From Baekduia alba (GTDB lineage Bacteria > Actinomycetota > Thermoleophilia > Solirubrobacterales > Solirubrobacteraceae): a stretch of DNA of 64,000 bases. The position numbers and the translations under genes are program-made. Shown here piece by piece: positions 15,818 to 29,906 of the stretch. The stretch covers positions 5,270,001 to 5,334,000 of the forward strand of contig NZ_CP114013.1 in NCBI RefSeq assembly GCF_028416635.1, read 5' to 3'. Position 1 is the stretch's first letter, and every line of letters starts with the position of its first letter. Below the pieces are notes generated by a model. The model was given only the letters and a program-made list of their open reading frames with translations. It did not search any database and was not told the DNA's origin.

Positions 15818-15835
15818 GAAGGTTCCTTTTGCTCT

Positions 15836-15985
15836 TCACGCCTACGGGGTTAGCTGTCGGGCTCGCGCTGGAAGAGCTGCGCTACAGGGCCGCATTGGCC
15901 CCGATTCGCCCCTGGGTCCGGATCGCTCCAGACCCCTTGGGTCCCCCGCTCCCGGCGACTTGCGCCACCGGGACTCGGCTGGTGT
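15836..15985 (-). ncRNA. ydaO/yuaA-type cyclic-di-AMP riboswitch
   Basis: The minus-strand leader of the rpf-like gene carries the conserved blocks of the ydaO aptamer: CCGAGTCC near the 5' side, GGGGGACCCA (15947-15938), GGGGCGAATC in the middle, and the diagnostic 3' block GACAGCTAACCCCGTAGG (15858-15841). The aptamer ends about 7 nt before the ribosome site AAAGGA (15829-15824). This class binds c-di-AMP and usually turns expression off when the ligand is abundant. In Streptomyces the same class is known to sit before the rpfA cell-wall hydrolase gene, which fits this context. Outer boundaries are approximate. Confidence 0.92.
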
Positions 15986-16100
15986 ACAGCCCGGTAGACA
16001 AGCACATCCAGACGCCGCGTGCGGGGCGACATAATCGTTCGGGACCGACCGCTCGCGGCCTGGCCGGCGGGTACACGGCGAACGGCGCCGTCATGGTTCG

Positions 16101-28305: not shown

Positions 28306-28479
28306 ATGGACCGGTCGCTTCCGATCTACGCCAGCACGGCCACCCGCCGCGGTCGCGGCCGAGGATGGTCGCGTCGCCGACGCCGCTGGGTCGGCCGGGT
28401 GGTGAGACCGGGCGCCGTGGGGCTGGTTCTGGCGGTCGTGGCGCTGCTGGCGACGGCCGCGGAGCGAGCGGTGGGGTGA
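28306..28479 (+). CDS. Possible small membrane protein, 57 aa
   Basis: ATG behind GAGGAGGG (28296-28303). The peptide has a strongly basic front (TRRGRGRGWSRRRRRW) and a single hydrophobic stretch (AVGLVLAVVALLATAA) near the C-terminus. The basic-inside pattern fits an inner-membrane miniprotein, and the ribosome site is good though close (2 nt). No family known, and it lies in a repeat-rich gene-poor stretch, so it may be spurious. Confidence 0.4.
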   Translation: MDRSLPIYASTATRRGRGRGWSRRRRRWVGRVVRPGAVGLVLAVVALLATAAERAVG

Positions 28480-28503: not shown

Positions 28504-28880
28504 CGCCGGGCGTGGTTGGTCACCAGTGTGGCGCGTTGTCGTGGCTGCGGCGCGTGGGTTCGTCCCTCATCAAGGGCGTGCGAGTGTGGTGGCGGCGCTC
28601 CACGCGGTCGGTGTGGCTCGTCCTCGTGGCAGCGCGGGGGGCGAGTTCGGGGCCGACTCGTCGGGTCAGGCGCTATGGATCGCGTGAAGTCCGCGTATGT
28701 CGCGGACTTGACGCGATCGAGCACCATTCGGCCCCGAACCGCCCGCCCCGAAGCACGACCAACGACGAGCCACACCGACCCCGGTCGCGCCGCCAAACGC
28801 CTTGACGCCCTTGATGAGGAACGAACCACGCCCCGCAGCACCACACGCGCGCCGTACTGGTGACCAACCAACGCCCGCGC
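28504..28880. repeat. Large imperfect inverted repeat, about 370 bp
   Basis: Two arms of about 180 nt face each other around a centre near 28692-28698. Perfectly complementary blocks: 28514-28527 with 28856-28869 (14 bp), 28566-28579 with 28805-28818 (14 bp), 28606-28622 with 28764-28780 (17 bp), 28645-28656 with 28728-28739 (12 bp). The core is AAGTCCGCG-TATGT-CGCGGACTT (28687-28709), extended by GATCGCGT/ACGCGATC (28678-28685, 28711-28718). Between blocks the arms differ by substitutions and small indels. No transposase or convincing ORF. Could be a MITE-like or REP-like element, two inverted copies of a repeat, or a long structured RNA between the phosphatase gene and ctaA. Confidence 0.75.
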
Positions 28881-28913: not shown

Positions 28914-29906
28914 CTACGACACCGCCGCCGGCTCCCGCGGAGCCGCCGGCTCGCGCGGCGACACGTCATCGCTCGCCGCCACCCGCTCCGCCCGGCCAGC
29001 GGCCAGATACGACCAGACCAGCGCGTTCCAGGTCAGCGTGACCGACGCGACGTGGAGCCAGACGGTCCAGGCCGGGTAGTCGAGGATGTGGTACTGCAGC
29101 GTGCCGACGGCGCCCGTCAGCGCGACCGCGAGGCAGACGGCGGTGAGGGGCGCGTAGAGGTCGCGGGCTCCGCGGAGGCGGGCGAAGATCCAGAGGGCGA
29201 CCGCGCAGACGCCGAAGACCGCGGCGATCCGCGCGTGGACCATGATCACCGTCTTGAACGTGTCGTCGCCGAAGATGCCGAGGCGCGAGACGGTGTCGTC
29301 GGTGCCCTCGCCGCCGGCGTAGGGGCCGGAGGCGGTGACGGCCGTCCCGATCACCACGACCGCGCCGCCGACCACGGTCAGCGCGCGCGTCATCCGGACG
29401 AGCAGCGCGTCGTGCGACGGCGTCTGCGGCTGCTCGCGGCGTTCGCGGACGACGCGCCACACGAGCGTGACCGCGACGACGAGCGTCGCGATCGACAGCA
29501 GGAAGTGCGACATCACCGTGACGGGGTTGAGGCCCGTCAGCACCGTGACCCCGCCGAGCACGGCCTGGACCGCGACGCCCGCCGCGAGCAGGGCGCCCAT
29601 GACCGTGAAGTCGCGGCGGTAGGGCCGGCGCAGGAGCGCGAACGCGAGGCACAGGACCGCCGCGATCGACACCGGCGTCGTGATCATCCGGTTGGAGAAC
29701 TCGATGTAGGCGTGCCCGTTCGACGGCGTCACCGACGTGCCGTTGCAGCGCGGCCACTCGGGGCAGCCCAGGCCGGAGCCGGTCAGCCGGACGGCGGCGC
29801 CGGAGATGATGATGAGCGTGAAGAGCACCAGCGCCGACCACGCGGCGTAGGCGTGCACGCGCGGGGAGATCGGCCACCGGTCCCGCAGGCGATCGAGACG
29901 GGACAT
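28914..29906 (-). CDS. ctaA: Heme A synthase (CtaA/Cox15 family)
   Basis: A 330-aa polytopic membrane protein (about eight helices) that converts heme O to heme A for aa3-type cytochrome oxidase. Features: RLTGSGLGCPEWPRCNG with the Cys pair in the first periplasmic loop, YIEFSNRM, and conserved histidines in VMSHFLLSI, IMVHARIAA and WLHVASVTL. The ATG at 29906 is chosen because CATCCT (29921-29916, minus) ends 9 nt before it; a start at 29933 would add nine residues. The C-terminal tail repeats REPAA. No ctaB or oxidase genes adjoin it. Confidence 0.92.
   Translation of the reverse strand: MSRLDRLRDRWPISPRVHAYAAWSALVLFTLIIISGAAVRLTGSGLGCPEWPRCNGTSVTPSNGHAYIEFSNRMITTPVSIAAVLCLAFALLRRPYRRDFTVMGALLAAGVAVQAVLGGVTVLTGLNPVTVMSHFLLSIATLVVAVTLVWRVVRERREQPQTPSHDALLVRMTRALTVVGGAVVVIGTAVTASGPYAGGEGTDDTVSRLGIFGDDTFKTVIMVHARIAAVFGVCAVALWIFARLRGARDLYAPLTAVCLAVALTGAVGTLQYHILDYPAWTVWLHVASVTLTWNALVWSYLAAGRAERVAASDDVSPREPAAPREPAAVS

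Follow-up and report, generated by a model that had tools for sequence, protein, structure and literature searches.

The window analysed here covers 64,000 nucleotides of the Baekduia alba genome (G000). At positions 28504-28880 it holds a giant imperfect palindrome placed between two convergent genes. Its left neighbour, on the forward strand, is a conserved small open reading frame of 57 amino acids (MDRSLPIYAS..., positions 28306-28479), and its right neighbour, on the reverse strand, is a gene of the ctaA type, as the earlier note had named it (positions 28914-29906). The stop codon of the former lies shortly before the palindrome and that of the latter shortly beyond it, each facing the element. 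The small frame encodes an Arg-rich stretch followed by a hydrophobic one, and a similar frame is found at the same place in the relative G002. Genes were called by means of a simple codon model, with the window as training sequence; as had been suggested before, there is no believable ORF within the element itself. The window also contains a c-di-AMP riboswitch (RF00379, positions 15825-15990, reverse strand, 68.5 bits for a gathering score of 38). The palindrome has no Rfam match at the gathering threshold.

The giant palindrome and its copies

The left arm of the palindrome (28504-28668, forward strand) has an outer end that resembles the terminal inverted sequence of the repeat, GGCGTTGGTTGGTCACCAGTGCG. 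The right arm (28723-28880, reverse strand) is an inverted copy, 74-75% complementary to the left one. Between them stands a core hairpin (28678-28718), GATCGCGTGAAGTCCGCG-TATGT-CGCGGACTTGACGCGATC, that we call type A, and the arm blocks I1-I5 lie where the earlier note had placed them. The left arm includes GGGGGGCGAGTTC (28636-28648, forward strand), a motif that many DUF559 genes carry 38-40 nt before their start. A variant of this leader motif, GGGGCGGGCGGTTC, can be read from the sequence in inverted orientation (28736-28749, reverse strand). When folded as RNA, the region 28504-28880 has a minimum free energy of -291.3 kcal/mol, for a mean of -182.7 among shuffled sequences (sd 6.4, z -17), and none of the 100 shuffles folds as well. 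A scan of the sequence against its own reverse complement gave a score of 152 at the element and nothing above 50 in 400 kb placed evenly across the same genome. The complementarity of the arms is strongest at 28504-28880 and fades towards approximately 28440 and 28944. These results confirm the imperfect palindrome of about 370 bp, with its arms and core, that the earlier note had described. The earlier note had seen no terminal duplication, and we found no clear target-site duplication in the flanks examined, where GC-rich DNA blurs the outer limit of the element.

We then compared the core and the arms with the host genome and its relatives, as the earlier note had proposed. This revealed about 20 more copies, full or partial, elsewhere in the B. 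alba genome (mostly 75-93% identity, with diverse flanks), a diverged family in the sister species of the same genus (G006) and copies of the core at an AbiEi-DUF559 gene. Most copies match on both strands because each of them is a palindrome. The other relatives gave weak matches alone. The conserved arm pattern occurs in two of the 299 genomes of the class, those of B. alba and G006, and is absent from the other 297, hence we rejected a wide spread of the arm scaffold. The 43 matches in contigs of a wider set of genomes came one per record from unrelated taxa and look like chance, and a 'perfect palindrome' of 119 bp in one locus (L015) turned out to be a run of N.

The copies have a marked preference for certain junctions. 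We found 16 out of 20 between convergent genes (p ~ 1e-9, binomial test against the junction frequency); in random samples, convergent junctions were 67 out of 391 (17%) and held 8.5% of the intergenic bases. In most of these copies, 0 to about 50 bp separate the palindrome from the stop codons. One copy (L006) lies at a junction whose orthologue in G006 also has a giant palindrome (L006 and L088/L229), suggesting that one or more copies may be older than the separation of the two species. The ctaA junction itself is occupied differently in other genomes. In G001, the hairpin found there matches that of a DUF559 gene of this genome with a score of 29; among 790 control windows, only one more reaches 29 and corresponds to a dispersed copy, with 15 as the next score. 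In G002, an unrelated palindromic repeat stands there, about 168 bp long and with further copies in G002 and G003. This repeat ends in CTAGGAG..CTCCTAG (L161, L162, L163 and L165, the last being a shortened version) and is also found away from ctaA.

From copy to copy, the left arm remains different in sequence from the right one, and the consistency of this difference suggests that the element is probably copied as a unit. One of the two readings offered by the earlier note is that the arms are under selection for pairing, a view that our data do not support. Among 15 copies, double-sided changes in arm pairs numbered 18 for a shuffled mean of 16.3, which is no clear excess, and many pairs vary only by breaking. 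We detected no compensatory selection on arm pairing. This matters when considering that the element might be a functional bidirectional transcription terminator or an RNA element that selection maintains and recombination has duplicated. Such a role fits a very stable hairpin between convergent stop codons, the other hairpins at the ctaA junction in G001 and G002, and the presence of one element at orthologous junctions in B. alba and G006. Yet, beyond the lack of excess of compensatory changes, the sequence of 28504-28880 has no T-run after the core or after either arm to complete the GC hairpin of an intrinsic terminator, and most convergent junctions of B. alba leave hardly any gap and lack such a hairpin. 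We find this explanation quite improbable.

The core hairpin and the AbiEi-DUF559 genes

Judged from sequence comparisons, the centre of the palindrome is a separate hairpin module of 41 bp belonging to a family of AbiEi-DUF559 nuclease genes. Eight giant palindromes have this core hairpin, and two copies of it bound a gene with AbiEi_4 and DUF559 domains elsewhere in the genome (G000:790744-791697). The homologous gene of G006 (54% identity) likewise stands between two hairpins, here of the G006 type. The other giant palindromes of B. alba have other cores, which resemble the hairpins of other DUF559 genes of this genome. When the centres were matched to the DUF559 hairpins of the same genome and to at least 70 DUF559 flanks of other genomes, the best match was a hairpin of the same genome in 23 of the 27 giant palindromes. 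The cores that do not fit are those of L007, L024, L025 and L028; the first is nearly tied with the gene of another genome and the last two are degenerate. The L024 copy (1501-1920), from B. alba, has a core that resembles the G006 type and none of the DUF559 hairpins of its own genome. Some giant palindromes have two different small hairpins side by side at their centre (L017 1501-1959, L031-L037). We also considered that solo hairpins might insert into pre-existing palindromes, such as terminators, and rejected it as their flanks are not significantly complementary (p = 0.054 and p = 0.98). The earlier note had suggested an old insertion of inverted repeat copies. This was close, since we observe a dispersed family with inverted arms, but it missed that the core is a module of its own.

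Different core types occupy the same arm scaffold, whose outer sequence GGCGTTGGTTGGTCACCAGTGCG is shared by both sides of many copies in the manner of the terminal inverted repeats of MITEs. The giant palindrome could then be a MITE mobilized by an ordinary IS transposase recognizing the outer ends of the arms, the DUF559 hairpin being there by chance or as a passenger. The joint travel of the left and right arms would also be consistent with this. On the other hand, the arm matches include no autonomous copy and no solo arm beside a transposase, no target duplication was seen, and the DUF559 leader motif is present at the inner end of each arm. We consider this unlikely. The DUF559 unit has the core and the leader motif in common with the giant palindrome, not the arms, which have no long homology to DUF559 loci beyond this motif.

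The protein encoded between the two hairpins has five residues, E209, D236, E247, H254 and D264, that are invariant across 53 homologues, 48 of which have the AbiEi_4 domain. In a structure model of mean pLDDT 93, residues 3-197 superpose on the AbiEi antitoxin 6y8q (Z = 13.7, 184 residues), residues 206-306 on the catalytic domain of the homing endonuclease I-Bth0305I (3r3p, Z = 13.6) and residues 204-306 on Vsr (1cw0, Z = 11.3). The first part has the winged-helix N-terminus and the C-terminal fold of AbiEi, and the protein is matched by the AbiEi models of PADLOC. The second part has a PD-(D/E)XK-like Vsr fold with conserved acidic and His residues, and sequence profiles agree with its assignment to the EDxHD/Vsr type. 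The protein is predicted to join the fold of an AbiEi antitoxin to that of an EDxHD/Vsr homing endonuclease and to be a DNA-cutting enzyme.

G006, G004 and G002 lack the fragment of about 1 kb with the gene and both hairpins, and at their orthologous site the genes flanking it in B. alba stand adjacent. The unit was gained or lost between these genomes, and its absence in three relatives points to a gain in B. alba.

DUF559/AbiEi-like genes are present in 62 of the 81 genomes of the family that we sampled, in up to 17 copies each. In a comparison with 526 control genes, a strong upstream hairpin precedes 39% of DUF559 genes (5% of the controls), and 24% have similar hairpins at both ends (none of the controls); an obvious hairpin at either end is present in only about half of the genes. 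In many cases, the dyad axis of the hairpin falls on the start codon, and 23 out of 71 genes have a motif close to GGGGGGCGAGTTC at about -38 to -40. A palindrome in G001 (L141) was discarded, as it is a GC-rich sequence without any of the three DUF559 hairpins of this genome that we tested. In a genome of another genus (G027), the hairpin of one DUF559 gene has about 20 dispersed copies. Its pattern has 48 matches, the reversed pattern has four, and there is no excess in three other genomes. Several of these copies have paired changes in the stem (17 cells with double-sided changes for 9.5 after shuffling, 0/500), and among the 17 intergenic copies with both neighbours called, eight are between convergent genes. 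Dispersed intergenic short palindromes comparable to REPs occur in G027 (about 20), in G006 (about 20 or more) and, for the core types, in B. alba. The consensus of the G027 hairpin has at its ends neither of the unpaired tags of REPs, GTAG or CGTC.

The position of the hairpins at the start of genes raises the question of their role in regulation. They could be operators through which the AbiEi-like domain represses its own gene, the dispersed copies serving as regulatory or decoy sites. The hairpin often spans the start codon, a conserved motif stands at -39, and AbiEi antitoxins autoregulate by binding inverted repeats (PMC7319586), which makes an operator role of the 5' copy a serious rival, or one that may coexist with others. 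Yet, similar hairpins are also found at the 3' end of DUF559 genes, the dispersed copies are mostly between convergent genes, not at promoters, and operators alone leave unexplained why a gene unit with two hairpins occupies a site where relatives have none. We find this explanation unlikely.

A candidate family of mobile palindromes

We think that the element is probably a repeat of the REP/MITE kind, which would be mobilized by a homing-type nuclease that has the core as its cognate site. It is a non-coding dispersed palindromic repeat of about 380 bp, made of inverted arms of about 155 bp and the core hairpin of 41 bp. The AbiEi-like domain would recognize the palindrome and the EDxHD/Vsr-like domain would cut the DNA there; repair or replication would then spread the hairpin to new sites, either alone or together with the gene. 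Each AbiEi-DUF559 protein most likely recognizes its own palindrome. The empty orthologous sites of the DUF559 unit are compatible with such nuclease-driven spread. Insertions would survive best between convergent stop codons, because no promoter or operon is broken there, and elements at these positions may end transcription from both sides. A broader proposal is more tentative, its chances falling a little short of even. There could be a class of mobile palindromes outside RAYT/REP, in which an AbiEi-EDxHD gene has its start codon on the axis of a hairpin of its own, often with one copy of this hairpin at each end. The hairpin copies would spread, accumulate between convergent genes and come to form the cores of giant nested palindromes.

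How does this compare with known systems? MITEs and palindromic intergenic repeats (ERIC, Nezha and similar) are non-coding, dispersed and strongly hairpin-forming, as is the element described here. It differs from them in that its core is an exchangeable hairpin, and we found neither a target duplication nor a parental transposase among the arm matches. The nearest analogue is the REP/REPIN-RAYT system, which has short dispersed palindromes at gene ends or between convergent genes, and where the gene of the enzyme is bounded by its own palindromes, with one type of palindrome per enzyme (PMC3733652, PMC3116915). Placement between convergent gene ends is known for classical REPs (PMC3733652), and there is a REP super-family of CGTC repeats without a dedicated enzyme (PMC3733652). 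In contrast, the enzyme is an HUH tyrosine transposase in REP/REPIN-RAYT and an AbiEi plus EDxHD/Vsr-type protein here, the hairpins are longer (37-55 nt), some copies are inside palindromes of 380 bp, and the G027 family lacks the GTAG or CGTC tag. Given the other class of enzyme and the lack of this tag, we do not claim membership of REP/RAYT. The predicted nuclease shares its C-terminal fold and catalytic pattern with I-Bth0305I (EDxHD) and Vsr, but is fused to an AbiEi-like N-terminal part, and its genes stand on their own between palindromes, outside introns and inteins. Similarly, its residues 3-197 match the whole fold of the AbiEi antitoxin of type IV toxin-antitoxin systems, from which it differs by carrying a nuclease domain. 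We found no link between DUF559 and palindromic repeats in the literature searched, beyond which other papers may exist.

The DUF559/AbiEi-like genes are frequent and still lack an explanation. If they encode nucleases that each have a palindrome of their own, palindromic repeats of this broad type would gain a concrete enzyme that can be tested, and a simple connection would emerge between a DNA-binding fold of the antitoxin type, a nuclease of the homing type and the way gene ends are shaped. These findings point to an undescribed family of bacterial palindromes that would be mobile.
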